A DNA stretch of 64,000 bases from Bacteroidota bacterium. Lineage in GTDB: Bacteria; Bacteroidota; Rhodothermia; JANXDC01. Both the position numbers and the translations under genes were made by a program. Below, in pieces: positions 1,968 to 47,689 of the stretch. Within the stretch, counting starts at the first letter, position 1, and each line of letters opens with the position of its first letter. The notes under the pieces were generated by a model that saw only the letters and a list, made by a program, of their open reading frames with translations, was not told where the DNA came from and did no database searches. Location: positions 1,957,549 to 2,021,548 of the forward strand of contig AP024675.1 of NCBI GenBank assembly GCA_025998875.1. Direction: 5' to 3'.

Positions 1968-1973
1968 ACGCCC

Positions 1974-3886: not shown

Positions 3887-4360
3887 ATGCAGCAGACGCT
3901 GCTGGCCTTCTGTGCCCTGCTCATCGCCTGCCTGTGGGCGCTGTCGCAGCAGCGGGCGTTGTTGGGAAACCGATTCAGCATGGTGCACCTGGAGCTCGAG
4001 CAGGCCGCCGCCGAGGTGGCCCGAGATATGCTGGACCGCATCGGAAGCAAGCCCTTTGACGCCGCCGCCCTGCAGGGCGGGATTGCCGATCTGAGCCAGC
4101 TTACCTGGCCCCTGCTGCCCACGGGGCTGCCCTTTGATCAGTGCATGGACATCGATGATGTGCACGGCATGTTGCCGTATACGTACCGGACCCCGGATAG
4201 CCTGCGCTTTGAGGTCCGGGCCGAGGTGCGCTACGTGGATCCCGAAGACCCCACGCGGATCGTCTCCGGCCCCACGCTGGCCAAGGAGGTAACCGTGACG
4301 GTCACGCATCCGGAGATGCGCGCCCCCGTACGACTCAAGCGGATTTTTAGCTACCCCTGA
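3887..4360 (+). CDS. Minor-pilin-like protein, cassette 1 first member
   Basis: A 157-residue protein with one N-terminal hydrophobic helix (MQQTLLAFCALLIACLWALS) and a soluble remainder that ends with a VTVTHPEM...PVRLKR motif. It has no recognisable prepilin leader. It is clearly paralogous to the gene at 6620: both have the early helix, an ARxxLxxxxxxxFD segment, a DxDD-like acidic patch followed by a Tyr-rich stretch, and the closing PVRLKR plus aromatic residues. Position between pilB and pilT, and the single helix, argue for a minor pilin or pilus-associated subunit. RBS-like aaagggag lies 8 bases upstream of the start. No named family was recognised, so the specific role is open. Confidence 0.6.
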   Translation: MQQTLLAFCALLIACLWALSQQRALLGNRFSMVHLELEQAAAEVARDMLDRIGSKPFDAAALQGGIADLSQLTWPLLPTGLPFDQCMDIDDVHGMLPYTYRTPDSLRFEVRAEVRYVDPEDPTRIVSGPTLAKEVTVTVTHPEMRAPVRLKRIFSYP

Positions 4361-4365
4361 AGGCT

Positions 4366-4923
4366 ATGCATGTGCTCTGGGACCATACCAACGCGATGGT
4401 GATCGGCGGCGTCGTTTTGCTCATTCTGCTGGGTATTCAGGATCGGGCCCGGCAGGCGCGCACGGAGGCCACGCTGTATTACATGGCCAGATCCGAAGCC
4501 TTCGCTTTTATTGAGACGCTGGAGCGAGATCTCCTCAACATCGGCTCCGGGGTGCCGACCGGAGAGGCCAAACTGCTCTCCGCCGATAGCACGCATCTCA
4601 TCTTCCGGCGTCGTTTTGAGATCGACGGGCCTATCCGCACGATCCGCTATGTGTGCCAGCCCGCCCGGGAGGCCCCCGAGGGGAGGCCGCTTTATGAGGT
4701 GCGGCGTTATGTGGACGACAACCCGGCCGGTCAAAGCCCCGGTATGTTGGCTCGTTTCCGTTTTGATCTGCTCGATGAGGCGGGCCAACCTACCCAGGAT
4801 CTTGCTGCTGTGCGTCAGATTCGGGTTTACATGGCTGTAGCCTACCCATTCGGCCAGCGGGGGCATCTGCCCCACACGCGCTGGCATGCCGTATATCGGC
4901 CGCGTGCGCTCGCCAGACCCTGA
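4366..4923 (+). CDS. Minor-pilin-like protein, cassette 1 second member
   Basis: A 185-residue protein with a hydrophobic helix near residues 11-24 (AMVIGGVVLLILLG) followed by a charged helix (QDRARQARTEATLYYMARSEAFAFIETLERDLLNIGSG), the usual geometry of PilW/PilJ-like pseudopilins. The LERDLLNIG segment matches LERDLRLLG in the gene at 7105, its paralog. No classical prepilin cleavage site is visible. The start is 5 bases after the previous stop. It likely forms a subcomplex with its two cassette partners; that is inference from order and duplication. Confidence 0.6.
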   Translation: MHVLWDHTNAMVIGGVVLLILLGIQDRARQARTEATLYYMARSEAFAFIETLERDLLNIGSGVPTGEAKLLSADSTHLIFRRRFEIDGPIRTIRYVCQPAREAPEGRPLYEVRRYVDDNPAGQSPGMLARFRFDLLDEAGQPTQDLAAVRQIRVYMAVAYPFGQRGHLPHTRWHAVYRPRALARP

Positions 4924-4938
4924 GAAGGAGATACGCGT

Positions 4939-6468: not shown

Positions 6469-6536
6469 AGACGTTTCCTTTCTACCCGCCTGGGGGTAAA
6501 AACGAACCCAACGCTGCCGTCGGGGACCAGCGGCGT

Positions 6537-6575
6537 GAACCGTCCGGCCCGAAAGGGGCGGGCGGTTCGATTTTT
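6537..6575 (+). terminator. Intrinsic terminator between the two pilin cassettes
   Basis: A 14-bp stem (6537-6550 with 6555-6568, one G-U and one mismatch) closed by a GAAA tetraloop is followed by TTTTT at 6571-6575. Two smaller hairpins lie just upstream (TACCC/GGGTA at about 6483-6498 and CGCTG/CAGCG at about 6511-6531). The whole 150-base gap 6469-6619 therefore looks like a structured boundary, which may set the relative expression of cassette 2 and the pil genes beyond it. Confidence 0.75.
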
Positions 6576-6619
6576 GCCTGTCAACGAAAGGAGCATTTTT
6601 TAATCAAAAGTGGGTATCT

Positions 6620-7108
6620 ATGGAGCGGGCCCAGTGGATCGAGGCGGTCGGGGCGCTTCTCGTGTTGGGTTCGCTCACCTATGGGGCTTTCCATCAGGTG
6701 GGGACAGCACGGCAGCTGGCTGATCGGGAGCAGGCCACTGTAGTCGCCGTGGGGCTGGCCCGCGGGGTGCTGGAGCTCTGCGCCCTGCGGGCCTTTGACG
6801 AGCGGAGTCTTTCCCGGTGGTGCTCCCATCCCGCTGAGCTCACCCCGCCGGGGGCCTTGGGGCCCGAGGTGGGCGAGGGGGAGTTTGTCGAGTTCGACGA
6901 CCTGGATGACTTTCACGGCTGGAGCCGGGTCGATACGGTGGGCGGGGTGCCCTACCAGCTGGAGGTCCGGGTCTACTACGCCGATCCGAATGATCTGGAC
7001 CGGCCCGCTTCGGGGGCCACGTTTTTCAAGACCGTCCAGGTCCTCGTGCACAGCCCCGGGCTGGCAGAGCCCGTGCGCCTAAAGCGCACCTATGCCTACT
7101 TCCGATGA
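6620..7108 (+). CDS. Minor-pilin-like protein, cassette 2 first member
   Basis: A 162-residue protein, paralog of the gene at 3887. It has one N-terminal hydrophobic stretch (IEAVGALLVLGSLTYGAF), a charged helix, an acidic EFDDLDDFHGW patch and the closing motif PVRLKRTYAYF. No prepilin leader or Glu5 is seen. An RBS (aaaggagc) lies upstream of the terminator-separated start. It begins the second copy of the three-gene cassette, in the same order as the first. Sequence divergence between the two copies is high, so the duplication is old rather than a recent tandem event. Confidence 0.6.
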   Translation: MERAQWIEAVGALLVLGSLTYGAFHQVGTARQLADREQATVVAVGLARGVLELCALRAFDERSLSRWCSHPAELTPPGALGPEVGEGEFVEFDDLDDFHGWSRVDTVGGVPYQLEVRVYYADPNDLDRPASGATFFKTVQVLVHSPGLAEPVRLKRTYAYFR

Positions 7109-7638
7109 CATGGCTTGGACATCTGAGCGCGGTGCTCCTGTTCGGTACGATCTCCTTGGGGATCGTAAGCCTGAAGGGTATGCTCGATCGCGTGCGCGCG
7201 GAGCTCTGGTTGCGTTACATGCAGAAAGCGCGCACGTTGGAACTCATCGATGCCCTGGAGCGGGACCTCCGGCTTCTGGGCAGGGGATTGGAGGATCGGT
7301 CGGCCATGCTCCTGGGCTGGGGTCCGGACTCGTTGCTCTTCTGCGCCGATATCAACGGCGATGGGAGATCGGATTCCGTGCTGTATCGCTGGATGCGGGG
7401 CGCTGAATCCCCTTCGGGCCGTATCGAGCGCTGGGTAAACGGCTCCCTGAGCGGGGAGACAGGCTCTGGCGTGGAGGTGTTTGCTCTGGAGCCGCTGGAC
7501 GAGCGGGGGCGGCCTGTCGAAGAGCTCGCCCGGATCCGCCTGTTTCAGGTCCGGCTACGCTATCGAGCGCCTTTCCCGCAGGCGGTCGTCCCGCTGGAAT
7601 GGGTTTCTTTTGTGGGGGCGCCGAATCTGAGCCGTTGA
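7105..7638 (+). CDS. Minor-pilin-like protein, cassette 2 second member
   Basis: A 177-residue protein overlapping the previous gene by 4 bases (ATGA), a sign of translational coupling. It has an N-terminal helix (LSAVLLFGTISLGIVSL) then the charged stretch MLDRVRAELWLRYMQKARTL and LERDLRLLG, matching the paralog at 4366. The short DINGDGRSD stretch resembles a calcium-binding DxNxDG loop, as found in some minor pilins and dockerin-like turns. No classical prepilin leader. Likely partner of its neighbours in a pilus-tip or secretion subcomplex; inferred from order. Confidence 0.6.
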   Translation: MTWLGHLSAVLLFGTISLGIVSLKGMLDRVRAELWLRYMQKARTLELIDALERDLRLLGRGLEDRSAMLLGWGPDSLLFCADINGDGRSDSVLYRWMRGAESPSGRIERWVNGSLSGETGSGVEVFALEPLDERGRPVEELARIRLFQVRLRYRAPFPQAVVPLEWVSFVGAPNLSR

Positions 7639-7650
7639 GGGGGCGGGGAG

Positions 7651-8700
7651 ATGGGTAGAGCGCTGTTGCTGTATGTGGCCGGGGCCGGGATGATACTGGG
7701 CCTACTTTTCTGGCAACTGCGGGGGCAAAACCTCGAGGATGTTCGGGTCTCCAGTCGATATTATGAGCGCGTCCTGGCCCGCGAGATCGCCCGTACCGGT
7801 CTGGCTCATGGTATGAGGCGGCTCCTGGAGGCGTGGCCGATGCTCGATCCCATCGAAGCCCGCCCGTATCAGGGCGGCCACTACACGGTCAGCTCGCTGG
7901 AGCTCGGCTCCGGATCGGTGCGGCTGGAGGCCATAGGCGTCTACGGACGGGAACGGGATACGGTCGCCGTAGTGCTGCGCCGAGCTCCGAGCCCGATACC
8001 GGACTTTCCGGCCGCGCTCACCGTAGCCAGTCTTTTTTCCGATGAGGTCTCGGCCAGCTTCCGGGGAAATGCCTTTCAGGTCGATGGCCGGGATCACGAC
8101 CTCAACGGCGCGCCCCTTTCGGAGGCGCAGGCCGCCTATGGGATTCTGGCCACACGCCCCGGGATACGGGATCGGATCCGGGGGGCGCTCTCGGGCCAGC
8201 AGTACGACAACGTGCAGGGACGCGATGGGCTGGTGCCGAATGTTGTCTCCGGGTCTGCCGGTTTTGATGTTTCCGCTTTCCTGGACCAGCTCCTGGCCTC
8301 CGAGGCGCAGCTGCTGCCCGCCCGGATGAGCGGCAACTACACGCTGGGCTCTTTTGCACAGCCCATTCTGGCCCGGGCGCCCAATGGGCTGGAGCTCTCG
8401 GGCGCGATCTGCGGGGTGGGGATTCTTCTGGTTGATGGATACCTGCGCCTGTCCGGGAACGTGCGCTGGCACGGTCTGCTCGTGGTGCGCAATGGAGAGG
8501 ATCTGGCCGTGCTGGAGACCGTCTCCGGCACGCCCCAGATTATCGGGGCCATGCTGGTCTATAACAGCGCTTTCCGTCCCATCTCGCTTCGTATAAACGG
8601 CAACCCGTCGTTGCTCTACAGCTCCGAGGCCCTGGAGTGGCTGCGCAGGCGGCTTCACTTCGGCCAGGGTGGCATTGAAATTGCCGACTGGGTCCGTTGA
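7651..8700 (+). CDS. PilX-like/pilus-associated large subunit, cassette 2 third member
   Basis: A 349-residue protein, shorter paralog of the gene at 4939. It begins MGRALLLYVAGAGMILGLLFW, followed by VLAREIARTGLAHGMRRLLE and a beta-rich domain with SGAICGVGILLVDGYLRLSG and a C-terminal LLYSSEALEWL. As in the other copy the start MG is followed by few residues before the helix, so any processing would use a very short leader. It closes cassette 2, and pilT starts 43 bases later. Confidence 0.6.
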   Translation: MGRALLLYVAGAGMILGLLFWQLRGQNLEDVRVSSRYYERVLAREIARTGLAHGMRRLLEAWPMLDPIEARPYQGGHYTVSSLELGSGSVRLEAIGVYGRERDTVAVVLRRAPSPIPDFPAALTVASLFSDEVSASFRGNAFQVDGRDHDLNGAPLSEAQAAYGILATRPGIRDRIRGALSGQQYDNVQGRDGLVPNVVSGSAGFDVSAFLDQLLASEAQLLPARMSGNYTLGSFAQPILARAPNGLELSGAICGVGILLVDGYLRLSGNVRWHGLLVVRNGEDLAVLETVSGTPQIIGAMLVYNSAFRPISLRINGNPSLLYSSEALEWLRRRLHFGQGGIEIADWVR

Positions 8701-8743
8701 AGGCCCCGGCAGGCCGCGGAGTCCAGCCAGTTGGAGGGTGGGT

Positions 8744-10012
8744 ATGTCGACTTCTCCGTCCGCTATACGTTCCTCAAAGGCCCGTAGTGTGCCCCCTTTT
8801 CCGGAGGCGGCGCGCGAGCTTATTACCAAACTATCCCCTCGCGTTACGGGTCTGGAACGGGTTCAGCATCAGGCCGCTGAGCTGATACGCCTCCCGGAAG
8901 CCGTGCGTGGGGGGCTGGAAGCAATCATGCACTTTCTGCTGGAGTTCATGCTCGAGCAGGAGGCATCGGACCTCGATCTGGGGGGGCGTGCTGCCAATGG
9001 ATACGTCTGGTATCGCATTCACGGGGCCAAGCGGCCCCACCCGGAAGTAGGGCGATACGATCCCGATGAGGCCAATCTGCTCATTCTCGCCCTGACCACG
9101 GACCGCATCCGCGAACGGCTCTATGAGCGGCTGAGCGTGGATTTCTCCTATGAGCTGGTATACCAGGGACGGCGTCGGCGCTTTCGGGCCACGGCGTATC
9201 TGGAGGACGGGTATCTGGCGCTGAACATGCGTGCGCTGCCCGAACAGGTCCGTCCGCTGGATTCGCTGGGCTTTCACCCCAACATCGTCAGACACCTCAT
9301 GTTCGAGTACGTCCGTGACGGGCTCACGCTCGTTACCGGGGTTACGGGATCGGGGAAATCGACCACGCTGGATGCCATCATCGAGGCTACTAATCAGCTC
9401 TCCGAGGCGCACGTGATTATTCTGGGGGCACCTGTGGAGTACGTGCACACCTCAAAGCGTTGCCTGATCCGGCATCGGGAAGTCGGTCGGGACGTGCATT
9501 CTTTTAAAGAGGGCACAATCCAGGCCCTGCGCCAGGACCCGGACATTATCGTCATCGGCGAGATGCGGGATCCGGATACGATTATGGCGGCACTGGAGGT
9601 TACGGACTCCGGACACAAGGTTTTCTCCACCCTGCACACCTCTTCGGCTGTGGAGTCCATTGACCGCATCATTGCCGAATGTCCGGTCGAAGAGCAGGAG
9701 CGTGTGCGGCATCGGTTGGCCGACGTCTTGCGCGTGGTGATCTCCCAGAAGCTCTGTCCCCGCATCGGCGGAGGCAGGGTGTTGGCCAAGGAAGTGCTGC
9801 TGGTGACCCCTTCGGTAAGGGCCGCTATCAAGAACAACAACACCGCGGAGATCTATCAGATGATCTGGGAGGGGGGATCGCTGGGCATGATCACCATGGA
9901 ACAGGATTTGTTTCGGCTCTATCGGGCGCGCCAGATCACCTGGGAGACGGCGATGAATTTCGCCAACAACAAGCGGCGGCTCCAGCAGCTTCTCCAACAG
10001 GCAGAAGGGTAG
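8744..10012 (+). CDS. pilT: Type IV pilus retraction ATPase PilT-like
   Basis: A 422-residue ATPase of the PilT/PilU group. Walker A GVTGSGKSTT lies near residues 199-208, Walker B at LRQDPDIIVIGEMRDP, and the His box at FSTLHTSSAVESIDRI. It lacks the PilB zinc tetracysteine, and the region VRAAIKNNNTAEIYQMI sits where PilT has its AIRNLIRE motif. The N-terminus is about 60-70 residues longer than in typical PilT. The ATG at 8744 was chosen because a GGAGGG RBS lies 7 bases before it; the frame is open upstream to 8669 inside the previous gene. Role: pilus disassembly and retraction at the inner-membrane base. Confidence 0.88.
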   Translation: MSTSPSAIRSSKARSVPPFPEAARELITKLSPRVTGLERVQHQAAELIRLPEAVRGGLEAIMHFLLEFMLEQEASDLDLGGRAANGYVWYRIHGAKRPHPEVGRYDPDEANLLILALTTDRIRERLYERLSVDFSYELVYQGRRRRFRATAYLEDGYLALNMRALPEQVRPLDSLGFHPNIVRHLMFEYVRDGLTLVTGVTGSGKSTTLDAIIEATNQLSEAHVIILGAPVEYVHTSKRCLIRHREVGRDVHSFKEGTIQALRQDPDIIVIGEMRDPDTIMAALEVTDSGHKVFSTLHTSSAVESIDRIIAECPVEEQERVRHRLADVLRVVISQKLCPRIGGGRVLAKEVLLVTPSVRAAIKNNNTAEIYQMIWEGGSLGMITMEQDLFRLYRARQITWETAMNFANNKRRLQQLLQQAEG

Positions 10013-10015
10013 GTC

Positions 10016-11695
10016 ATGGCTCGACGTTCCGAGCGCGTAGCCGGGGTGTACGTTACCCCTCAGCAGGTGCACGTGGCGGTGCTGTCGTATCGCAACGGGC
10101 AGATCCGGGTTCATCGGCTGGAGAGCCGGCGGCGCACGTTCACCTCGCTGGCCCAGGCGCTTACCGTGGGGCAGCTTTCCGGTGGGGAAGAGCCCGTGCC
10201 TTTGACGCCGATGGAGGTAAATTCTTCCTCGCAGGTCATAGAGGAGGAGCTTTCGACCAACGGGCTGGGAGGCGGCGATCTGATTTCCTACACCCCGCTG
10301 CTCGATCAGCCGGGGCCTGCGGACATCACGGCCGAACTGCGCGAGCTTCTGGAGACCGAGGTGCACGAGCATCGGCTGCGGGTGGGATTCTGCATCACGG
10401 AGCCGGACCTCGCGCTCCGGGAGCTCCCCATACCCCCGGACTGGAAAGAAGAGCAGGTGGAGTTCAAAAGCCTCTTTCGCCTCCTCAAAGAGCAGTTCGA
10501 TGAGGCCGTAACTCCCGATGCGGTGGCGTTTGTGCCCTTCAAGGAGCGCGCGGTGCTGGCCATCATCCGCATGCCCACCTCGCCGGTTCTGAACTCTTTG
10601 GCCCGGCTGCGCGTGCTCTGGGGCCGACGTTTCCCGGAGGTGGGCCTCCTCGATGCTGAACCCACGACGCTGCTCGGCATGGCCCGCGCCTGTCATGCCA
10701 TTTTGCCGGACGAGGCGTCCTTCATCGTGCGTGTGGGCTTGGAGGAGACCCTCGTGCTCGTGTTGCGGGGCGAGACGCTGTTGCGGGTCGAGTCCCTGAA
10801 AGCCGTCACCATCTATGATAGCCCGGAAACGATCTCCAGCCGCCTGCTCCTGTTGCAGGATGAAGAGGGGCTGGAGCGCGTGCACAACCTCTACGTGATG
10901 ACTGAAGGGGGGGATAGCGACCGGTTGCGGGCGCAAATGGAGGCCTATTTCCCGGGTGCCTATGTGGTGCCCCTCAGCGAGGGCCTCCCCGAGATGGCCA
11001 TCGAGCTCGACGAGGGGGTATCGCCGGAAGCGCTGGAAGCCTACACCGTACCCCTGGCCGTGGCGCTCCGGCTGCTGACTCAGGATCACGCGCTTTTCTA
11101 TGACGTCAACCTGCTGCCCCCGGAGCTGGCACAGCGGCCCGCTCCGCTGGAGTTGGCCTGGCATGGATATGCCTGGCTTTTGCTGCTGTTCATGAGCACG
11201 CTCTTCTTCGTCGGGCGTTTTTACCAGCAACGACTCCAGATTCGCCACTGGGAGGAGGCGCTTCGCGTGGAGGCCCCGATTTCGCCCCTGCTGGAGCGCG
11301 AAATCCGAACCCGTATCGATAGCCTGCAGGGGCTCGCTATGCGGTACGAAGCGGCCACCCGGGCGCTGGATAGCCTGCTTATGGGATCGGATCGCTGGAG
11401 CCGCGCCCTCGCCGCCGTGGCCGAAGCCACCGGCCTGATTGGGGGTATCTGGATCCGGGAGTGGGTGCCCGGAAAGGATTATGTCGATCTGGCGGGCTAT
11501 GCGCTGGACCGGGATCGGGTTGTGGCTCTGGCTCGGAGGCTGGAGGGCACCATCCAAGCCGTGACGTTTGATGAAATCCGGGGTGCGCGGGTCTATCAGT
11601 ACCTCATGCGTATTCCGAGCAGGGAGACCCTGCCCCGATCCGTGGAGTACCTGCGCACCCTTTCGGCCGCTGGAGCAACAGGAGGGGGATCATGA
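10016..11695 (+). CDS. PilM-PilN fusion, T4P alignment protein
   Basis: A 559-residue protein with two parts. Residues about 1-375 look like the actin-fold PilM (start with RRSERVAGVYVTPQQVHVAVLSY, later FIVRVGLEETLVLVLRGETLLRVESL). One transmembrane helix follows near 380-403 (GYAWLLLLFMSTLFFVGRFY), then a periplasmic coiled coil and a ferredoxin-like PilN domain to the end. PilM and PilN are separate proteins in most T4P systems; the same joined arrangement is known for T2SS GspL. It overlaps the next gene by 4 bases. Family assignment rests on fold pattern and location, as motifs are weak. Confidence 0.75.
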   Translation: MARRSERVAGVYVTPQQVHVAVLSYRNGQIRVHRLESRRRTFTSLAQALTVGQLSGGEEPVPLTPMEVNSSSQVIEEELSTNGLGGGDLISYTPLLDQPGPADITAELRELLETEVHEHRLRVGFCITEPDLALRELPIPPDWKEEQVEFKSLFRLLKEQFDEAVTPDAVAFVPFKERAVLAIIRMPTSPVLNSLARLRVLWGRRFPEVGLLDAEPTTLLGMARACHAILPDEASFIVRVGLEETLVLVLRGETLLRVESLKAVTIYDSPETISSRLLLLQDEEGLERVHNLYVMTEGGDSDRLRAQMEAYFPGAYVVPLSEGLPEMAIELDEGVSPEALEAYTVPLAVALRLLTQDHALFYDVNLLPPELAQRPAPLELAWHGYAWLLLLFMSTLFFVGRFYQQRLQIRHWEEALRVEAPISPLLEREIRTRIDSLQGLAMRYEAATRALDSLLMGSDRWSRALAAVAEATGLIGGIWIREWVPGKDYVDLAGYALDRDRVVALARRLEGTIQAVTFDEIRGARVYQYLMRIPSRETLPRSVEYLRTLSAAGATGGGS

Positions 11696-12609
11696 AAGCG
11701 GCCACGCGGAACTCGATCCTGCTCGGTCTGCTGTGGCTTCTGGTTGTGGGCATCGGGATCGGGCTTACGTTCTGGAAGCTGCCCGGACGCCTGCAGGAGC
11801 TCCGGGCCGAGGTGGAGAAGCTGCGGCATACCGGGGGGCGGCTGCAGGAGCTCCGCGCCGAGGAGGCCCGCGCCCAGGCCTATTACGAAGAGGCGCTGGC
11901 GCGCTGGAATGCGCAGTATAAAGTCCTTCCCGTGGGACTCAACACGGCCGAGACGATCGCCTACCTGAACCACCTCACGCCCATAGGGTTTGAACGTTTT
12001 GATGTGCGCTATGAGGGCACGGAGCGCTCCGGCTCGGTAGGGTGGCACCGCTACAGCGTATCCGGGGAGGGTTATTTCGTCTACCTATACCGGTTCCTGT
12101 GGAATCTGGAGAACAGCCCCCCGCTGTATAAGGTCACGGACCTGCAGATCTCCGACTTCAGCGCCGTGCGACCGGACAGGCGAACCGGGCAGGAGCGGCT
12201 GGAGGTGATGGTGAAGTTCTCCATGCGCCTGCTGGCCTATTTTACCGATGCGGAGGGGATTCGAGCGCCGGAACGCCGCACGGCACTCCCGCCGGAGGCG
12301 TTCGTTCCGTTCCGGGCCGCCTATAACCCCTTCTATCCGATCATCCTGGCTCAGGTGCCTCCTAACACCGAAGGGCTGCCCGATGTGGAGCAATCCGAGC
12401 TTCTCGGGGTAGGGCCGGACTGGGTGTTGCTGCGTGATCAGTACAAGCGTGTTCGCCGGCTCCGTATCGGGGACAGGGTCTATCTGGGCCATCTGGTGAG
12501 CACCAATCCGGCCATGGGGTTGGCCATCTTCCAGCTCGATCGGGGCGGGATCGTTGATCGCCTCGAGCTGGGCACCAATGACGTGGTCGGGAAGTCCGAA
12601 TCGCGTTGA
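11692..12609 (+). CDS. PilO-PilP-like fusion, T4P alignment protein
   Basis: A 305-residue protein. A short cytoplasmic tip, a transmembrane helix (about 9-28, LLGLLWLLVVGIGIGLTF), a coiled coil (LQELRAEVEKLRHTGGRLQELRAEEARA) and a PilO-like domain are followed by a C-terminal stretch (about 233-303) with VLLRDQYKRVRRLRIGDRVYLGHLV and IVDRLEL, which looks like the beta-domain of PilP that contacts the secretin. In most bacteria PilO and PilP are two genes. Start ATG overlaps the stop of pilMN (ATGA). The PilP part is a pattern-level assignment. Confidence 0.7.
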   Translation: MKAATRNSILLGLLWLLVVGIGIGLTFWKLPGRLQELRAEVEKLRHTGGRLQELRAEEARAQAYYEEALARWNAQYKVLPVGLNTAETIAYLNHLTPIGFERFDVRYEGTERSGSVGWHRYSVSGEGYFVYLYRFLWNLENSPPLYKVTDLQISDFSAVRPDRRTGQERLEVMVKFSMRLLAYFTDAEGIRAPERRTALPPEAFVPFRAAYNPFYPIILAQVPPNTEGLPDVEQSELLGVGPDWVLLRDQYKRVRRLRIGDRVYLGHLVSTNPAMGLAIFQLDRGGIVDRLELGTNDVVGKSESR

Positions 12610-12622
12610 GGGAGAAACGGAT

Positions 12623-13849
12623 ATGCGCGTGTGGATCCTGCTGGTTGTGCTGCTTCTGGGCTGTCTCTGGGAGGCCACCGCTCAGGTGCGCCCACCGGAG
12701 CGCCTGATGCGCTCCTATATTCCTCCGGAGGAGCTGGTCTCCTTTGCCCCGACCACGCCGTTTGATCAGTTTCTGCAGATCATCAATGAGCTGGCCCGTC
12801 GGGCCGGGCAGAAGCCGCTTTTCGATCCGGAGGAGCGCACCACCCCCATCGGGGTAGCCATCAGTGGGCAGTACTGGCGCGATGCCCTGGAGCTCGTGCT
12901 CCGCCAGCACCGGCTTGCGCTGGCTGAGCGGCCCAGCTTCTGGTTGCTCGTGCCGGCCGCAGGGGAAGGGGTGGCTTCCCCATCGACCCCGGCGGGGCCT
13001 GGAACGCCCTCCGGGGAAGTGCCCGACCTGCAGAAGCGCGAGGTGGAGATCTCAGCGCTGTTCTTCGAGGTCAACACGGAAACAGCTCGCCAGTTGGGCG
13101 TCAATATCGCAGGTCTTCTGGAACGGGTGCTTCGTTCCGGGGCGGTGGGGCTGAGCTGGGGCCTCAGCAACGCGGCCCAGTTGCCCGTGGGGGCGCCGGA
13201 GCTCGGCCTGCGCCTGCGTCGGCTGTTGGGAGAGGGCGGACAGGACGGGGAGGTCAATACGGAGCTTCTGATCCGCGCCCTTGAGGATATGGCTCTGGGG
13301 CGTGTGGTCGCCAATCCCCAGATCACCGTGGAATCGGGCCAGAAGGGGGAGATCCAGGTCGGTTCCGATGTGCCCATATTCGCCCGGGATTTTGCGGGCA
13401 ATACGATCACGCAGTTCGTGCGTACGGGCACGATCGTGAGCGTCGAACCCGTGGTGGTGCAGGATTCCGTGCCCTTCATCTATCTGAATATCGAGGTGGA
13501 GCGCAGTTCCCCGCGCCTGGTGGGGGCGGGGGTGGCGGTCGATAAAAGCCGCGCCTCCACGCGCGCGCTCCTGCTCGACGGAGAAGAGACCGTCATCGGA
13601 GGGCTTTTCAGCACGGAAGAAAACGTCTCTCGGGCAGGGGTTCCCGTGCTCAAAGACCTGCCGCCCTGGTTTTTCGGGCTCCGCTACCTGTTCGGGTACG
13701 AGAAGAAAACCCTGGTGCGCAAGGAGCTCGTCATCGTGCTGCGCGCCCGGATTCTGCCCCCGCTTACGGAACGTCGTCCGGGGGGATCGACCCTGCAGCG
13801 GATCCGGGAGCGGCAGGAGGAGTTTCGCCGGCGCCTGGGCCAGCAGTAG
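12623..13849 (+). CDS. pilQ: Type IV pilus secretin (PilQ/GspD family), short form
   Basis: A 408-residue protein with signal peptide (MRVWILLVVLLLGCLWEATAQ) and a secretin domain that ends with the signature region GVPVLKDLPPWFFGLRYLFG then KELVIVLRARILPP. The NPQITVESGQKGEIQVG and ETVIGGLF segments are typical of secretin pore strands. Only one short N-type domain (about residues 45-105) precedes the pore domain, against the AMIN repeats and several N domains of proteobacterial PilQ (over 600 residues). It closes the pil operon and is followed by a strong terminator. ATG 12623 has a gggagaaa RBS upstream. Confidence 0.85.
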   Translation: MRVWILLVVLLLGCLWEATAQVRPPERLMRSYIPPEELVSFAPTTPFDQFLQIINELARRAGQKPLFDPEERTTPIGVAISGQYWRDALELVLRQHRLALAERPSFWLLVPAAGEGVASPSTPAGPGTPSGEVPDLQKREVEISALFFEVNTETARQLGVNIAGLLERVLRSGAVGLSWGLSNAAQLPVGAPELGLRLRRLLGEGGQDGEVNTELLIRALEDMALGRVVANPQITVESGQKGEIQVGSDVPIFARDFAGNTITQFVRTGTIVSVEPVVVQDSVPFIYLNIEVERSSPRLVGAGVAVDKSRASTRALLLDGEETVIGGLFSTEENVSRAGVPVLKDLPPWFFGLRYLFGYEKKTLVRKELVIVLRARILPPLTERRPGGSTLQRIRERQEEFRRRLGQQ

Positions 13850-39145: not shown

Positions 39146-39777
39146 TGCGTCTGCAGGAGCACGATAGCAAACCGAAGCCCGGGCTCTGTTACCCGGTCGT
39201 GGAGCATTTCTACACGCTCCAGGGTGAGGGGGCCTGGGCGGGGCAGGCGGCCTATTTCATCCGGCTGGCGGGCTGTGATGTGGGCTGTTGGTGGTGCGAT
39301 ACGAAGATTTCCTGGGATGCCTCTGCGCATCCGTTGTTGGATCTTTCCACGCTCGTCGAGGCGGCCGGCTCTGCGCCCAGCCCGATTGTGGTGATCACGG
39401 GAGGAGAGCCCCTCATGCACGATCTGGACCCGCTCACGCGTGCGCTGCACACTATAGGTAAGCGGGTGCATGTGGAGACAAGCGGTGCCTACCCGCTTTC
39501 CGGGCAGTTGGACTGGGTGACGCTTTCCCCTAAGAAGTTTCGGCCCCCGCTTCCGGAGATCTATCCCTATGTCTCGGAGCTGAAGGTCGTGATCACCAAC
39601 CGAAGCGATTTCCGGTGGGCCGAGGAACACGCCGCCCGCTGCCCGGAGGGCACGCTGTTGTTCCTGCAACCGGAATGGTCCTCTTCCCAGCTGTTGCCCG
39701 AAATTGTGCGCTACATTCAAGAGCATCCCCGCTGGCGGCTCAGTCTGCAGACGCACAAGTACCTGGGGATTCCTTAA
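39145..39777 (+). CDS. queE: 7-carboxy-7-deazaguanine synthase QueE (radical SAM)
   Basis: A 210-residue radical-SAM enzyme that makes the 7-deazapurine ring from CPH4. The 4Fe-4S motif is CDVGCWWC (C-x3-C-x2-C). Upstream is VEHFYTLQGEGAWAGQAAYFIRLAGC, a hallmark of QueE, followed by ITGGEPLMH (GGE motif) and VETSGAYPL. The GTG start at 39145 directly joins queD. QueC and QueF, next in the pathway, are not in this window. Confidence 0.93.
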   Translation: MRLQEHDSKPKPGLCYPVVEHFYTLQGEGAWAGQAAYFIRLAGCDVGCWWCDTKISWDASAHPLLDLSTLVEAAGSAPSPIVVITGGEPLMHDLDPLTRALHTIGKRVHVETSGAYPLSGQLDWVTLSPKKFRPPLPEIYPYVSELKVVITNRSDFRWAEEHAARCPEGTLLFLQPEWSSSQLLPEIVRYIQEHPRWRLSLQTHKYLGIP

Positions 39778-39794
39778 GGGAAAGCGGTACGCTC

Positions 39795-40823
39795 ATGAAA
39801 TCGCAGCCGGTGGCCCTGAAGGCGGCCGAGCATTTTCTGGCCCGCTTTACGGATCCGGAAGCCGATTTTGACGAGCTGGCACTGGAAGCCTTTCGGCTTC
39901 AGGCCGCCGCCAACCCCGTATACCGGGCTTACCTGCAGGCGCTCGGACTGCGTCCGGAGGCGGTCTGTTCGTGGCGCCAGATCCCCCCGCTGCCTGTGGA
40001 GGCCTTTCGATACGGACCCGTATGCGTGGGACCTCCGGAGGAAGCGGAGCTGATTTTTCAGAGCAGCGGCACGAGCGGCTCCCTGCGGAGCCGGCATTAT
40101 GTGCGGGATCGCCGTTTTTACGATCGTTCCGCCCTGGAGCACTTCCGCAGGCTGCTGGGATCGGGGCCTTTTGTGTTTGCCGCCTGGTTGCCCGGATATG
40201 TGGAGCGACCCGATGCTTCCCTGCTCTACATGGTAGAGCGGCTTATGGAGGCCTTCGGAGAGGAGGGCTCTGCGTTCGTCTATCCCAACCCCGATCGGCT
40301 GCAGGGCCTGGCCGAAAGAGCCCATCGGCGGGGATGTCCATTTGTGCTTTTCGGAGCCGCCTTTGGATTGCTGGATCTGCTCGAAACCTATGGGCCCCTT
40401 GCGCTTCCCCCCGATAGCCTTGTGATCGAAACCGGAGGCATGAAAAACCGCAGGCGGGAGCTGGATCGTCAGACCCTGCACCATCTGCTGGCCGAAGGGT
40501 TCCGACTTCCCCGGGAGCGCATCTGGTCGGAGTACGGCATGACGGAGCTCTTAAGCCAGGCATACACCCGAGGGGGTACGGTCTTTTATCCTCCTCCCTG
40601 GATGCGCTTTCGCGTTGTCGATCCGGAAGATCCCCTCGGGCCGGACCGGCCGGAGGGGGAACCCGGAGCCCTGTTGTTGTTCGATCTGGCCTGCTACTGG
40701 AGCGTCTGCGCCATCCTGACCCAGGACCGGGCTGTGCGGCGAGGGGAGGGTTTTGAGGTGCTGGGGCGTCTGGCAGGGGCTCCCCTGCGAGGATGCAACC
40801 TGTTGCTGGAGTCGGACCTGTGA
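39795..40823 (+). CDS. LuxE-like acyl-protein synthetase/acyltransferase
   Basis: A 342-residue protein of the LuxE (acyl-protein synthetase) family, part of the ANL adenylate-forming fold. The phosphate-binding motif is QSSGTSGSLRSRHY, and a later motif EYGMTELLSQAY matches the A5-like YGMTE of the family. LuxE activates a fatty acid with ATP and passes it to LuxC for reduction to aldehyde. The LuxC-like gene follows with a GTGA overlap. ATG 39795 has no strong RBS but gives the family start. Some Bacteroidota carry this pair without luciferase, as here. Confidence 0.85.
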   Translation: MKSQPVALKAAEHFLARFTDPEADFDELALEAFRLQAAANPVYRAYLQALGLRPEAVCSWRQIPPLPVEAFRYGPVCVGPPEEAELIFQSSGTSGSLRSRHYVRDRRFYDRSALEHFRRLLGSGPFVFAAWLPGYVERPDASLLYMVERLMEAFGEEGSAFVYPNPDRLQGLAERAHRRGCPFVLFGAAFGLLDLLETYGPLALPPDSLVIETGGMKNRRRELDRQTLHHLLAEGFRLPRERIWSEYGMTELLSQAYTRGGTVFYPPPWMRFRVVDPEDPLGPDRPEGEPGALLLFDLACYWSVCAILTQDRAVRRGEGFEVLGRLAGAPLRGCNLLLESDL

Positions 40824-41908
40824 ACGCGCTCCGAGAGGCGCTTCTTGAGACGGCACAGGCCTGGTGCGATCCGTCCTATCCGGTGCGCCGGCAGGCCGAG
40901 CTTCGGGCTCTTTCGGAGAACCCCTTTTTTACCCCTGAGGCCGTGGGTTATGCCATCCAGGCGCGTCTGAGCGGGCTATCCCGAGAGGCGCTCGAGCGCT
41001 GGATCGGAACGGATGCCCCGCTCAGCGAGCCGGCCCGGATCGCCATCGTGCATCCGGGCAACATTCCGCTGGTGGGATGGGAGGATCTGGTGGCCGCCGT
41101 GCTCATGGGACATGCGGTCTGGTCGCGCCCCTCGAGGCGGAATCGAGCCCTCCTGATGGCCTTTGTGCAGGACTGGCGGCGCCGCGTCCCCGGGCTTCCC
41201 GTACGCTGGATCGAGGATCTGGAGGAGGCGCTTCCGGGGGTTGACGGGCTTATCGCCTCCGGCTCGGACGAAACCGTTCGGCTTCTGCGGCAGCTTGCCC
41301 TCAAGGTCGGACTGGGCCCGGAACGCTTGCTTCTGCGGGGCCATCGCTTCGCCGTGGCCTGGTGTGAGCCCGATTGCGCTCCGGAGGATCTATTTGCGCT
41401 GGCCCGGGATAGCTGGCTCTACGAAGGTCGGGGATGCCGCAGCGTGGCCGTGATCTGGGCTCCAGCGGGGCTCGATCCGGGTCGGTTCTGGGAAGCCTAC
41501 CGCCAGTTCCGTGCGCTCTTTCCAGCCCCCCAAGCCGCTATTGAGGCACTTCGGGGGGAACGCGCCCTCTATGAGGCCCTGCGGCCCTGGTTGCCCGGCC
41601 TCTGGTCGGATCCCGCCGGACTGCTCTCCGTGGGGCCTCCGGAGCCCAGACGGCCGGGTCATGTGCGATGGACCTTCTATAGCCGACCGGAGGAGGTGCT
41701 CAGCTGGCTTGAGGCGCACCGGGACCGGATACAGGTGGTGGTTGCGCAACGCAATCCCCCCACAGGATGGGAGCCCATGTGGGCCCGGCCCGGCGAGGCG
41801 CAGTGTCCTCCCCTGGACTGGCGTCCGGATGGTGTGGATACGATCGCCTGGTTGCGCGCCATAAAGCCCCGCATCTGTTCGGATCGGGAGTCCACCTATG
41901 CGCGCTAG
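40820..41908 (+). CDS. LuxC-like acyl-CoA/acyl-protein reductase
   Basis: A 362-residue protein of the LuxC (fatty-acyl reductase) branch of the aldehyde-dehydrogenase fold. IAIVHPGNIPLVGWEDLVAAVLMGH and LIASGSDETVRLL are typical NADPH-site segments, and the nucleophile Cys is likely in EGRGCRSVAVIW. It would take the acyl group from the LuxE-like partner and reduce it to an aldehyde. GTG 40820 overlaps the LuxE stop; an ATG at 40793 is also possible. No luciferase is present, so aldehydes would feed another route (wax, hydrocarbon or lipid processing). Confidence 0.82.
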   Translation: MNALREALLETAQAWCDPSYPVRRQAELRALSENPFFTPEAVGYAIQARLSGLSREALERWIGTDAPLSEPARIAIVHPGNIPLVGWEDLVAAVLMGHAVWSRPSRRNRALLMAFVQDWRRRVPGLPVRWIEDLEEALPGVDGLIASGSDETVRLLRQLALKVGLGPERLLLRGHRFAVAWCEPDCAPEDLFALARDSWLYEGRGCRSVAVIWAPAGLDPGRFWEAYRQFRALFPAPQAAIEALRGERALYEALRPWLPGLWSDPAGLLSVGPPEPRRPGHVRWTFYSRPEEVLSWLEAHRDRIQVVVAQRNPPTGWEPMWARPGEAQCPPLDWRPDGVDTIAWLRAIKPRICSDRESTYAR

Positions 41909-42713: not shown

Positions 42714-43146
42714 GGCGTTGGATCAGGACGGCCGTCCGCTGCGCCTGAGCGACTTCCGGGGTCGATACGTGCTGCTGTATTTCTATCCCCGGGACGGCTC
42801 CTCCGGTTGTACCCGACAGGCGCTGAATTTGCGCCAGCATTATGCGGAACTCGAACGGCGGGGGATTGTCATCCTGGGTGTGAGTCCGGATGATGTGGAG
42901 AGCCATCGCCGTTTTGCCCGGCAACACGAGCTGCCATTCCGGCTTTTGGCCGATCCGGGAGGGCAGATCGCGCGCGCCTACGGAGTATGGGGCGAGCGGC
43001 AGCTCTACGGTCGACGTTTCGAAGGCGTGCGGCGCACCACGTTTCTTATCGACCCCGAGGGCCGCATTGCGCACATATGGCGCACGGTGCGCACGGACCG
43101 ACACGCGGAGCAGATTCTCCAGGTGCTGGAGCGGGAAAAGGCATGA
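42676..43146 (+). CDS. bcp: Peroxiredoxin, Bcp/PrxQ type, apparently 1-Cys
   Basis: A 156-residue thiol peroxidase of the AhpC-TSA superfamily. The peroxidatic Cys is in YFYPRDGSSGCTRQALNLR near residue 46. Most PrxQ proteins have a resolving Cys five residues later (GCTxEAC); here that position is Leu, so the enzyme looks like the 1-Cys subtype and needs another thiol to be recycled. The usual Pro/Thr before the Cys is Ser-Ser-Gly. ATG 42676 has an aggaggc RBS. It overlaps the DUF547 gene by 38 bases and the next gene by 4. Confidence 0.88.
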   Translation: MKLTEGDLAPDFEALDQDGRPLRLSDFRGRYVLLYFYPRDGSSGCTRQALNLRQHYAELERRGIVILGVSPDDVESHRRFARQHELPFRLLADPGGQIARAYGVWGERQLYGRRFEGVRRTTFLIDPEGRIAHIWRTVRTDRHAEQILQVLEREKA

Positions 43147-43766
43147 GGTGGGAGCGCCTGGGGCCGGCGTGGGTGCTCTGGCTGGAGCTCGATGAGCTTC
43201 CGCAAGAGGCAGAATGGCTCTCGGAGGCGGAGCGGGAGCTGGCGGGACGCTACGGCCACCCCCGGCGGCTGCGGCAGTTCCTGGCCGGCCGATGGGCCGT
43301 ACGTCGGCTCTGGCGAGAGGTTGCCGAGCTGGAGGAACCCGTTGAGGTGATCCCCGATCCCCAGGGTCGGCCCCTGCTCTATGTGAGCGGAGAGGCGCTC
43401 ATGGACTGGGCCGTGAGCATCGCGCATTCCGGATCGCGTGTCCTGGTGGCCCTGCGTCAAGGCGGACGACTGGGGGTGGATGTGGAAGGCCAGAGGCCTC
43501 GGTCCGGGGCGCTGGTCTCTCGTCTGCTGGATGCCGAGGAGTGGGAGCTGATGCAGCGCTGGGCTCCGGAGGAGCCAATCCTGGCCGCCTGGGTGCTCAA
43601 AGAGGCCGGTTTCAAGGCGCTAGGGTCGGGTCTGCGGGCCCCGCTACGGAACCTGCGTCTGGTGGAAGAGGGGGGAAGACTACTCCTACAGGGGGTTGGT
43701 GCGCGCCTGCAAGCCCACCTGATGCGGATGGACCCCGCTTTCTGGGCGGCTGTGGCCTGGGATTAG
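43143..43766 (+). CDS. 4'-phosphopantetheinyl transferase (Sfp type)
   Basis: A 207-residue enzyme that attaches the phosphopantetheine arm to carrier proteins. Motifs are WAVSIAHSGSRVLVAL, LGVDVEGQRP (Mg-binding Asp-Val-Glu) and WVLKEAGFKALGSGL (the WxxKEA motif). Length and pattern fit the Sfp/AcpT class. It overlaps bcp by 4 bases and ends 4 bases inside the convergent Clp-fusion gene. Placed with LuxE and LuxC, it might serve a carrier protein that supplies their acyl chain, but this is inference; primary metabolism also needs such an enzyme. Confidence 0.85.
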   Translation: MRWERLGPAWVLWLELDELPQEAEWLSEAERELAGRYGHPRRLRQFLAGRWAVRRLWREVAELEEPVEVIPDPQGRPLLYVSGEALMDWAVSIAHSGSRVLVALRQGGRLGVDVEGQRPRSGALVSRLLDAEEWELMQRWAPEEPILAAWVLKEAGFKALGSGLRAPLRNLRLVEEGGRLLLQGVGARLQAHLMRMDPAFWAAVAWD

Positions 43767-46700
43767 CTTTCTAGATGCGCCCAGAGGTGCTCTTCGAGCC
43801 GGGCAAGAAGCGCCTCTCGGGAGCCATCGGGGAGGGGAAAAATGCGTACCTGCTCGGCCTGATGGGTGTGCTTGCAGAGCACGGAAAATGCGGCCAGGTA
43901 CGGCCTCCAGGCCCGTTTCGGACGATCTGTGTACCAAGACAGGGTGCGACCTTGCGGGTCGCGGACGTGCATGCGGTAGCGTGCCTCCAGGCCCGTACTC
44001 ATCTGGACCCGCCTGCGCAGGGGGCGAAAACGGACCTCCGGTCTTTCCCCTCCCCCCGTTGGGGGGAAAGGGGAGATACGTATCCGGACCTCGGCCGGCG
44101 TTCCGGAGTCCCGCAGCAGCCGATGTACCCCGGCCTCGGGAAGCAGCAGGCCGTAGGCGTTATGGCCCCGCACCAGAAGCAGCAGTCCACTGTGTGGATC
44201 CTCCGCCATGGGGATTACCTCCAGTCCCCGGCCTTCGAGGGCCTGCCTGTAGGCCAGGCCCAGCTCTAAGGCCCAGGTTTCCGATTCCGGACCCGTAGGC
44301 TCAAGCCACAGCAGGGCATCGGCGCTCGCTTCGGGATAGGCGAGCAGCTGCTCCCACTCCAGCGCCTCCATCTGCAGGACCGCCTCCCGGTAAAGGCGCG
44401 TAAGCTCCGGCCAGAGCGTTTTTTCCCGGCGGTAATGGAGGCGTTTGAGTTCTTCGAGCGTCTGCTCCAGGCGTCGGTACCGGTTCTGGATGCGGTAGCA
44501 CTGGCCCAGGGAACGCAGTTCTTCGAGCGCCTGTCTGGGGTGATCCCAGAAGGTGGGTTCCTGCATGCGCGCCTCAAGCTCCTGAATGCGCCGGCGTAGC
44601 TCCGTGACCCCCTGCCGGTCGGCCAGGGCCTGGAGGCGGCGCTCCAGCTCTTCTAGTTCGCGCTCCAGCTCGTCGGGATCCGGCATGGCCGGGAGGCGGC
44701 CGGGCTCCGGAAGGGCTGCAGGGCCCGCAGGGGGCTCGACGTGCACCCGTGTCTGCCCGTTCGGGTCGGATTCCAAACGGATCATGGAGCCCGGCTCAAT
44801 GGACCGCTCCACAAGCGCCTGCGCCAGGGGAAGGGTGATGAGCCGCTCTACGGCGCGTTTGAGAAATCGCGCCCCATATCGGGGACTGTAACCCTCTTCG
44901 ATGAGCCGATCCACGAGTCGTTCATCGATCTCCACGGTGAGCTGTTTGCGCAGAATACCTTCCCGCGCGATGACCTTGCCAATCTCCCGATAGGCGATCC
45001 GGCGCACGACCTCCGCAGAGAGGGGTTTGAAGTAGATGAGCTCGATGCGGTTTAAGAACTCCGGACGAAAATAGCGCTCCAGCTCCGCCTGCACAGCGCG
45101 CCGCAGGGCCTCATCGCTCATGCTCTCCTCAAACCCGATGGGCTTCTGGCCATAGAGCTTGGAGCCAATGTTGGAGGTCATGATGATGATCGTGTTGCGG
45201 AAGTCCGTCGTGCGCCCCTGACGGTCGGTCAGTCGGCCCTCATCGAAGACCTGTAGCAACAGGTCGTATACGTTGGGATGGCATTTCTCGAACTCATCGA
45301 GCAAGACCACGGAGAAGGGCTGTTCCTGGATGGGACGCGTGAGCTTGCCGCCCCGGTCATCGAAGCGTTCCCCGATGAGGCGTTCCCAGGAATTCCACTC
45401 CATGTACTCGGACATATCCAGCCGCACCATCCGCTCGGGGCTGCCGAAAAGATAAGCGGCCACGGTCTTGGCGAATTCCGTCTTGCCCACCCCGGTGGGA
45501 CCCAGACACAGATAGGTGGCCAGCGGCCTGGAGGGATCGTGCAGGCCGGATTTGAGCAGGGCGAGCGTGCGCTTGATCGCCTCGACGGCTTCTTCCTGAC
45601 CGAGCACGCGTTCGCTAAAGAACCGGTGTACTTCGTCTAAATCCAGCCGGGCTCGATCGTCTATAACCACGGCGGGCAGACCGGTTGTCTCCTGAAACTG
45701 CGATACCACGACCTCGGCCGTGAGCACCTGACGCGCGGCCAGCTGACCCCGATGGGCCAGGCGGGCGAGCATTTGCTTGAGGAAATCGATCGCCTTGCCG
45801 GGAAATTTCTGGTAGGGCAGAAAACGACCGGTGAGTTCGATGATACGCTGTACGACTTCGGGCAGGATTTCGACCCCGTAGCGTTGGCCCAGGTCTCTGG
45901 CTACGGCCATGAGGATGCGGTCGAGCTCCTCAGCTCGGGGCTCCTCAAGTCGTACCTGCGTGAAGACCCGCTCCAGATAGGGCGCTTGACGGAACATGTG
46001 CTTGAGCATGTCGGCCGTGGCCTCGCCGATGACGGTGATCTCCCCGCGCTCGATGAGGGGGGCTAGATAGGAGGCGAAGTTGGCCGAGGAGGTGGAGGTC
46101 GTACCGGCCCCCACGATGTTGGGCAGGTCGCGGATGTAGAGGATCACATCCCCCGCTTCCCGCATCTCTCGGGTGAGGTTGACGAGCTTGGTCTCCCACT
46201 CGCCGATGTATTTTGTGCCCGCCATCAGGTTCTGCGTGGTGGTCTCGAAGATGCGATAACCGGTCAGGGCCGGAGGGCAATGGCCCCGCTTGAGGCGACG
46301 GGCTAATTCGTAGATAACAGCTGTTTTGCCCACCCCGGGCTCACCGACGAGCACGAAACTGGAATTATCCGGTCGCTGAAGCAGGGCGTAGAGCTCCTCA
46401 AGCACGCCCTCACGTAGGTACGTGGCCGGTTGCTCTTCAACGTCGCGCAGGGTGGCTAGCTCGACGCAGGAGGTCTCCAAGACGCCTGTTAGGTGCTCTT
46501 CGCCGAATTCAGCCATGTCCACTATCCTCCATGAAATACCGGAGAAGGAGCGGGCCTTTCGGGGTTTTTTCTGGTGCAGGCTCTGCAGGAGTTCCTGGGC
46601 CCGTTTCCGCATCCATTCCGGACCCTGGGGATCGAGAGCAAGGTAGCGCTCCAGGTGCTCGCGCGCCTTTTCGAAGGCCTCCAGATGGCTGCAGTAGAGC

Positions 46701-47689
46701 AGCCCGATCCGGTAATGCAACAGCCCGTATTCGGGCTCCCGCTCCAGGGCGCGCTCGTAGAAGTGGAGGGCTTTTTCCGGCTGGCCGAACTCCACCAGCA
46801 GATCGGCGGCGGCCAGCAGAGCGATCGCGGGCCGGGGCCTTTCGGGTACCGGCAGGATCTCGGATATAAAACGGCGGCGCTTGCGGGGCAGAAAAAGGGT
46901 ATAGCCGGGAGCGGGAAACTCTTCGGCAACCCGATGTCGCAATTCCACCAGCGCGGCCTGCGCCTCTTCGGGATCCTGATCGCGAAATCGGAAGCGGCTG
47001 AGCACGTGCAGGGTTCCCGGATGATCCGGATCCAGATGCCAGGCCGTGCCCAGCAGATGGGGGAGGGTTTCCAGCGTTTCGGCCTGCAGCTCATCCTGCC
47101 GATACAGGAGTAGCTCGGCCAGCGTGAGGTAAGGATCCGGCCACTGGGGTTCCAGATCGACGGCCTCTGCGGCGCTCTCGGCGGCCAGCTCCGGATGTTC
47201 CAGCTCCAGAGCGGCTTCGGCCGCATACCAGCGCACAGGACCGCTTCGGGGGAATCGGGTTCGGGCTTGCTCGGCCAGGGCCACGGCCTCCTCCATGCGT
47301 CCGGCGCGACGCAGAAGCTCGATGCGGCTCAGGTAGAGCACGTCGGCACGCTCGGCCAGGCGTTCGCCCTGCCGCAGTATGCGCAGGGCTCGCTCTAGAT
47401 CCCCCTGTGCCTCCCAGTACCAAGCGATATGGCGGTAGAGGGTCGTCTCCGGGCCTTCTGCGGCCTCCAGATAGCTGGCCGCCTCCGCGGCCCTGCCCGC
47501 CTTCCAGAGCGCGATGCCCCGGGCCACCTGCAACCACCGCTGGCCCTCTCGATCCTGCGACGGCAGGACGGCCTCCCCGTAGGCGCCAAGCGCCTCCGTC
47601 CAGCGACCGAAAGGGCGACGCAGCAGGAACAGATCCGTGTACAGGCGGACGCGGCCGTATACGAAGGCAAGCCAGTCCCGGATCGGCAT
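43763..47689 (-). CDS. TPR - double Clp-type AAA+ - release-factor-2-like fusion protein
   Basis: A 1308-residue single open frame. Residues 1-380: TPR-like repeats replace the usual Clp N-domain. D1 (about 430-670): Walker A GEPGVGKT at 449-456, pore loop GTKYIGEWE with Tyr494, but Walker B ends ILYIRD (Arg520, Asp521) instead of D-E, and only one Arg of the ERRF finger remains (ERVF, 573-576). D2 (about 680-985): Walker A GPTGVGKT at 730-737, Walker B VVLLDE (Asp798-Glu799), Arg881, sensor 2 GAR at 939-941; the GYVG pore loop is missing (GERFDDRGGKLT, 773-784). IGF at 851-853 stands where ClpA/ClpC dock on ClpP. There is no ClpB-style middle domain. Residues 1001-1308: coiled coil with TFWDH, then NAYG and GVHRLLR as in RF2, but STGLEAR at the GGQ site. 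No clear RBS precedes ATG 47689. Confidence 0.88.
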   Translation of the reverse strand: MPIRDWLAFVYGRVRLYTDLFLLRRPFGRWTEALGAYGEAVLPSQDREGQRWLQVARGIALWKAGRAAEAASYLEAAEGPETTLYRHIAWYWEAQGDLERALRILRQGERLAERADVLYLSRIELLRRAGRMEEAVALAEQARTRFPRSGPVRWYAAEAALELEHPELAAESAAEAVDLEPQWPDPYLTLAELLLYRQDELQAETLETLPHLLGTAWHLDPDHPGTLHVLSRFRFRDQDPEEAQAALVELRHRVAEEFPAPGYTLFLPRKRRRFISEILPVPERPRPAIALLAAADLLVEFGQPEKALHFYERALEREPEYGLLHYRIGLLYCSHLEAFEKAREHLERYLALDPQGPEWMRKRAQELLQSLHQKKPRKARSFSGISWRIVDMAEFGEEHLTGVLETSCVELATLRDVEEQPATYLREGVLEELYALLQRPDNSSFVLVGEPGVGKTAVIYELARRLKRGHCPPALTGYRIFETTTQNLMAGTKYIGEWETKLVNLTREMREAGDVILYIRDLPNIVGAGTTSTSSANFASYLAPLIERGEITVIGEATADMLKHMFRQAPYLERVFTQVRLEEPRAEELDRILMAVARDLGQRYGVEILPEVVQRIIELTGRFLPYQKFPGKAIDFLKQMLARLAHRGQLAARQVLTAEVVVSQFQETTGLPAVVIDDRARLDLDEVHRFFSERVLGQEEAVEAIKRTLALLKSGLHDPSRPLATYLCLGPTGVGKTEFAKTVAAYLFGSPERMVRLDMSEYMEWNSWERLIGERFDDRGGKLTRPIQEQPFSVVLLDEFEKCHPNVYDLLLQVFDEGRLTDRQGRTTDFRNTIIIMTSNIGSKLYGQKPIGFEESMSDEALRRAVQAELERYFRPEFLNRIELIYFKPLSAEVVRRIAYREIGKVIAREGILRKQLTVEIDERLVDRLIEEGYSPRYGARFLKRAVERLITLPLAQALVERSIEPGSMIRLESDPNGQTRVHVEPPAGPAALPEPGRLPAMPDPDELERELEELERRLQALADRQGVTELRRRIQELEARMQEPTFWDHPRQALEELRSLGQCYRIQNRYRRLEQTLEELKRLHYRREKTLWPELTRLYREAVLQMEALEWEQLLAYPEASADALLWLEPTGPESETWALELGLAYRQALEGRGLEVIPMAEDPHSGLLLLVRGHNAYGLLLPEAGVHRLLRDSGTPAEVRIRISPFPPTGGGERPEVRFRPLRRRVQMSTGLEARYRMHVRDPQGRTLSWYTDRPKRAWRPYLAAFSVLCKHTHQAEQVRIFPLPDGSREALLARLEEHLWAHLES

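Follow-up and report, generated by a model that had tools for sequence, protein, structure and literature searches.

A Clp-type double AAA+ protein ending in a release factor 2 body that lacks the GGQ domain

The window, a stretch of 64,000 nucleotides from a bacterium of the Bacteroidota (class Rhodothermia), encodes on its minus strand a protein of 1308 amino acids in which a TPR region, the D1 and D2 modules of a Clp-type AAA+ ATPase and a release factor 2 (RF2) body without a GGQ domain follow one another in this order, as identified by Pfam and NCBIfam matches. It is a real and unusual protein, which the original prediction had misread in detail. The active parts expected from textbooks are gone from the ATPase half as well as from the RF2 half, so that a component of translation has apparently been put to a new use.

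Gene and domain architecture

The gene is a single open frame at 43763..47689 (minus strand), running from an ATG at 47689 to a TAA at 43763. The interval 43763-44689 had been proposed as a unit carrying an RF2-like domain. The RF2 stretch is there, but the boundaries are not those of a gene: read on the minus strand, 44689-43763 is the C-terminal quarter of the larger gene 47689-43763, with the TPR and Clp regions upstream in the same frame. The RF2-like domain itself was confirmed by a match to the PCRF domain PF03462 (56.6 bits, cut-off 24) in the C-terminal part of the protein, and by a match to the prfB model TIGR00020 (73 bits, E 2e-20) that lies below the curated prfB cut-off of 370. 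The ClpA/B/C-type profiles gave 410-424 bits against cut-offs of 993-1232. Judging from these scores and from the motifs described below, the protein is built from RF2 and Clp parts and is a member of neither RF2 nor the Clp unfoldases, since it proved to lack features that define each of them. No description of this fusion architecture was found in the open-access literature.

GC content by codon position was steady from one end of the frame to the other, and this includes the tail; it gives no reason to suspect a frameshift. A frameshift hiding a normal RF2 tail was considered as well and was ruled out, the other frames containing no RF2-like tail and the codon pattern being steady. The host genome (2.35 Mb, one contig) encodes an ordinary RF1 and an ordinary RF2, both with GGQ, at other places; the fused copy is therefore not the release factor of the cell.

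The release factor 2 body

RF2 domain 1, which is helical, extends over 44336..44677 (minus strand) and contains the motif MQEPTFWD at 44566-44543; it was delimited by the prfB and PCRF matches and by the helices of an AlphaFold model. The domain 2 core comprises residues 1119-1208 (44066..44335, minus strand) and was delimited by comparison of the same model with the PDB. The model covers the C-terminal 307 residues, with a mean pLDDT of 71 that falls in the tail; the RF2 rows of its input alignment were cut right after GVHRLVR, leaving the region beyond unsteered. The leading PDB matches were all RF2 or RF1. Model residues 118-207 superposed on residues 121-224 of Bacillus subtilis RF2 (9fy1) with a Z score of 12.7 and 1.2 A over 90 residues at 38% identity, the B. 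subtilis range being about 14 residues longer. The modeled structure thus indicates that domains 1 and 2 still have their RF2 fold, a possibility that the original prediction had allowed for.

The elements with which RF2 reads stop codons were not found in this fold, in agreement with the claim that the codon-recognition core has been lost. In the model, the loop between strands 4 and 5 lacks the SPF tripeptide and is shortened to RDSGTP (44096..44113, minus strand), a remnant of the stop-codon-reading loop (RISPFDSSGRRHT in RF2) flanked by model strands 186-190 and 198-207. An in-frame SPF at 44074-44066, overlooked in the original prediction, is a decoy: AlphaFold places it at the end of strand 5, outside the stop-codon-reading loop, and the relatives read VRVRV.PQP there. 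One alignment suggested that SPF had been retained behind an insertion, which is ruled out by this position on strand 5. The GG motif, which in RF2 touches the first base of the stop codon (PMC1586002), is also lost: the alignment sets HPGAGGTESQDW of RF2 against EPTGPESETW of the fused protein.

The loss of GGQ was confirmed on the whole translation, since the 1308-residue protein contains this tripeptide nowhere, neither elsewhere in the domain nor as a second in-frame copy. Within the PCRF-bearing stretch, GVHRLLR is followed 44 residues later by STGLEAR, which had been read as the sequence occupying the GGQ position. This assignment could not be upheld: in the family alignment, STGLEARYR..VRD falls on a domain 4 motif (IRSYV..LVKD in RF2) that is kept by four relatives of the protein. 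When the family was aligned and compared with 31 RF2 sequences, domains 1 and 2 matched, and some 80-90 RF2 residues that follow, GGQ included, had no counterpart; the profile alignment to the same sequences covered RF2 residues 26-364 and left the GGQ domain unmatched or scattered. The profile of RF2 domain 3 found nothing above shuffled sequences in the tail of the window protein (217 of 1000 shuffles).

The four relatives carry the evidence for what lies beyond the gap. At the end of domain 4 they read IVRRYR..PSPLVRD..GWRTGR, and their resumption, IVRRYR..PSPLVRD..GWRTGRLDRVLDGDFD, corresponds to IRSYVF.PYTLVKDHRTG.ET..V.AVMDGEID of RF2. Taken alone, their tails found the RF2 C-terminus with a score of 30.4, against a best of 23.9 for 200 column shuffles, and showed 38% identity over 37 residues to the host's own RF2. 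Relative by relative, the score against the domain 4 profile was reached by 0-3 of 1000 shuffles, and that against the domain 3 profile by 30-714 of 1000. The tail of the window protein is too divergent to match the RF2 domain 4 profile by itself, and its score against the family-tail profile, equalled by 26 of 1000 shuffles, is weak when taken alone. In the family alignment, nevertheless, STGLEARYRMHVRD...SWYTDRP (43919..43999, minus strand) shares RYR, VRD and W.T.R with the relatives; together with the RF2 profile alignment, this suggests that it is a divergent counterpart of the end of RF2 domain 4. The last 52 residues or so (43766..43921, minus strand) are lineage-specific, with pLDDT below 50 for model residues 268-307.

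By these alignments, domain 3, which carries GGQ in RF2, has been lost in its entirety; domains 1 and 2 are retained and so, clearly in the relatives, is the last part of domain 4. A replacement of GGQ in place, by STGLEAR or by TGGGERP, arises from plain alignment of the window protein with RF2 when the relatives are left out; it was ruled out, the domain 3 profiles being unmatched and the alignment with the relatives being in another register. In bacterial release factors the GGQ domain is inserted into the domain that recognizes the codon (PMC6514570), and a single superdomain is formed by domains 2 and 4 (PMC6742477). Clean removal of domain 3 is therefore structurally plausible. A GGQ tripeptide does occur in one relative (G052, L050, residue 981), by chance, in the domain 2 loop that corresponds to HPGAGG of RF2 and not in a GGQ domain; it is a trap for searches based on the motif only.

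With GGQ absent and the GG and SPF loop elements gone, both from the alignments and in the model, it is very unlikely that the protein reads stop codons or releases peptides in the way known from RF2, and the original prediction was right to consider release improbable. The likeness to RF2 thus lies in the sequence and modeled fold of its first two domains and in the domain 4 end seen in the relatives; the differences are the missing domain 3, the lost GG and SPF elements and the attached AAA+ ATPase. The protein shows that a bacterial RF2 can lose all of domain 3 while its other parts persist.

The plant protein PrfB3 of Arabidopsis is an RF2 relative that has likewise lost SPF and GGQ and has been given another role, in RNA binding, stabilizing an mRNA (PMC5897788). 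It indicates that an RF2 body without SPF and GGQ can take up a different function. The comparison concerns the pattern of losses only; PrfB3 is a free-standing plastid RNA-binding protein without an ATPase.

The losses also bear on whether any link to the ribosome is left. The RF2 body could have no tie to ribosomes or RNA any more and serve as a structural or oligomerization element or as an adapter between proteins, in which case the ATPase and the N-terminal region, TPR or other, would do the work. RF2 is positioned on a stop codon by three elements, the GG loop, the SPF loop and the GGQ domain, and the fused protein retains none of them; the N-terminal region, moreover, differs between families. 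Both observations fit this explanation. The domain 4 motifs PSPLVRD..WRTGR, which are of surface type and conserved over long times, suggest instead that a binding surface has been kept, and we regard a body without a ribosome or RNA link as rather unlikely, yet as an explanation to be taken seriously.

The AAA+ modules and a proposed working

The D1 module comprises residues 404-690 approximately (45620..46480, minus strand) and was identified by TIGR02639 (ClpA, residues 404-973), PF00004 and the lid domain PF17871. Its Walker B site, ILYIRDL (46124..46144, minus strand), is degenerate. Aligned with the four relatives and with the Clp proteins of the host itself, in which ClpC/ClpB-type sequences read ILFIDEL or ILFIDEI, the acidic pair was found to be lost in all five members of the family, DE being replaced by RD here and by other residues in the relatives.

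The D2 module with its D2-small domain follows at about residues 690-976 (44762..45622, minus strand; PF07724, 160 bits, and PF10431, 51 bits). In the alignment of the five members with the host's own Clp proteins, its Walker A (GPTGVGKTE, 45502-45476), Walker B (LLDEFEK, 45304-45284) and sensor-2 (GAR, 44875-44858) motifs, all on the minus strand, are kept. On these motifs D2 should still hydrolyze ATP, and the description of the protein as catalytically dead does not apply to the whole of it.

The aromatic pore loop (GYVG) of D2 is missing: the window protein reads RLIGERFDD..GG (45356..45382, minus strand) where the host's own Clp proteins read RLIGAPPGYVGYEEGG, and the whole GAPPGYVGYEEGG loop is absent from five of five family members. 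With this loop absent and the D1 Walker B lost, the fused protein is unlikely to be a threading unfoldase of the kind that ClpA, ClpB and ClpC are. At the position at which ClpA and ClpC dock on ClpP, an IGF-like loop, PIGFEE (45125..45142, minus strand), was found; all five members have [ILV]GF there, and ClpP is present in the host genome.

Neither a Clp N domain nor an M domain was seen when the fused proteins were aligned with the host's own Clp proteins. In place of the N domain, residues 1-372 (46574..47689, minus strand) form a TPR region, with three stretches matched by each of PF14559 and PF13428. The N-terminal region is variable in the family: two relatives (G052 and G488) have a start resembling a membrane anchor, and another (G336) has nearly none. 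The protein thus resembles ClpA, ClpB and ClpC in the D1-D2 order, the D2 Walker A and B motifs, sensor 2 and the IGF-like loop, and differs from them in the missing D2 pore loop, the lost D1 Walker B and the added RF2 body.

Torsins have a single AAA+ module. They too are Clp-related AAA+ proteins without aromatic pore loops (PMC7175109), and differ from the fused protein in being proteins of the nuclear envelope and ER without release factor domains. The Torsin profile PF06309 was not among the 25 matches listed for the window protein.

Our tentative first choice is that the protein, a Clp-type double AAA+ ATPase with a domain 3-less RF2 at its C terminus, acts as an ATP-driven remodeler or switch that does not thread its substrate, the gutted RF2 serving as a docking module for the ribosome or for some other target. 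Given its intact motifs, D2 would hydrolyze ATP within a hexamer. The docking arms displayed by such a hexamer would be several copies of the RF2-derived domains 1, 2 and 4 and the helical domains, TPR or other, of the N-terminus; cycling of ATP at D2 may switch the conformation of the assembly and so pull apart or reset a complex held by the arms. In any case, the motor to which the remainder of RF2 has been joined is of Clp type and no longer has its own loop for threading.

Distribution and locus

Among 244 genomes of the class, the fusion was found in five, a count in which distant members are under-represented because the searches applied a strict threshold and scored just the top few candidates of each genome. 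Besides the present genome these are G052, G487 and G488, which represent three genera of one family, and G336, from another family. In all five the PCRF domain scored above the Pfam cut-off and none has a GGQ domain. The fusion family is rare: a scan of genome contigs for relatives returned ordinary prfB only, the plasmid matches listed were prfB or unannotated partial matches, and a sample of 394 genomes of the phylum yielded only the class members already known.

Seven other genomes (G282, G403, G427, G024, G047, G022 and G271) gave weak PCRF matches confined to the first 60-110 positions or so, in frames of 650-730 amino acids, some with stops; these are probably helical look-alikes. Among third PCRF matches in the class, an extra full-length release factor copy was observed in G007.

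In the sister species G001, about 940 non-coding bases (G001:C12, 1070-2008) lie between the same flanking genes, and no remnant of the fused gene was found in this gap. The absence shows that the gene is dispensable in the genus. It would also suit a decaying fusion without function, as would the divergent, extended tail of the window copy; against this, the 1308-codon frame is intact with a steady codon pattern, and the same architecture and motif losses recur in five genomes of three families, which leaves decay with hardly any probability. In G052, G487 and G488 the gene occupies a conserved chromosomal position, with metabolic genes and an HtrA-like gene close by, and such conservation in three genera indicates a maintained gene. 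The fused gene of G336 has other neighbors, and no partner gene conserved between families was found.

A distant relative, the only one among 395 genomes of another class, was detected in G540 as a Clp-type protein of 1075 amino acids whose C-terminus matches RF2 (14.9 bits, reached by none of 1000 shuffles); it gave a weak match, below cut-off, to the Torsin profile. Its gene belongs to a cluster of three Clp-type AAA+ genes coding for 747, 1126 and 1075 amino acids (L105, G540:C5, 6327-19078). The end of the 1126-residue protein also resembles RF2, but the match to RF2 is not of clear significance (41 of 1000 shuffles). The cluster adjoins homologues of Septu PtuA/PtuB and a Schlafen AlbA_2 gene, which, with the patchy distribution of the fusion, could speak for membership in a conflict or phage-defense module. 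Only one such locus was seen, however; the gene has conserved housekeeping synteny in family f14, the window copy has ordinary neighbors, and the PADLOC matches hit the generic AAA+ D2 only. A defense role appears very improbable.

No translation genes lie next to the fused gene. This weighs, as does the loss of the decoding-center residues, against a ribosome-targeted AAA+ factor, in which RF2 domains 1, 2 and 4 would dock on ribosomes that are stalled or hibernating, in or near their A site or stalk, for the ATPase to remove something, by analogy, in spirit, with the RF-like Vms1 and its work with Cdc48. The docking body is nevertheless derived from RF2 and its domain 2 fold is closely kept; eukaryotic RF-like proteins are tied to an AAA+ chaperone and inactive release factors acting on the ribosome are known (PMC6514570). 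We consider this specific role unlikely, and a ribosome-facing adapter of the kind originally proposed is hypothetical. Slightly more doubtful still is the broader idea that such proteins are bacterial ATP-driven ribosome remodelers, each an RF2-shaped, GGQ-less mimic with a motor of its own that switches and does not thread. If the RF2 part of the tentatively favored remodeler or switch still meets ribosomes, it would represent a new way in which ribosomes, stalled or resting, are coupled to an ATPase; if it makes no such contact, the protein would clearly exemplify how a translation factor found universally can be turned to another purpose.

Other genes of the window were assigned by eye. 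The intervals 39615-41908 and 43142-43766 hold probable LuxE-like and LuxC-like acyl genes and, close to these, a probable 4'-phosphopantetheinyl transferase gene, which converges on the fused gene and ends where the latter has its stop. A long run of genes resembling those of type II secretion or type IV pili, among them ATPases, an inner-membrane protein and a secretin, occupies 495-13849.
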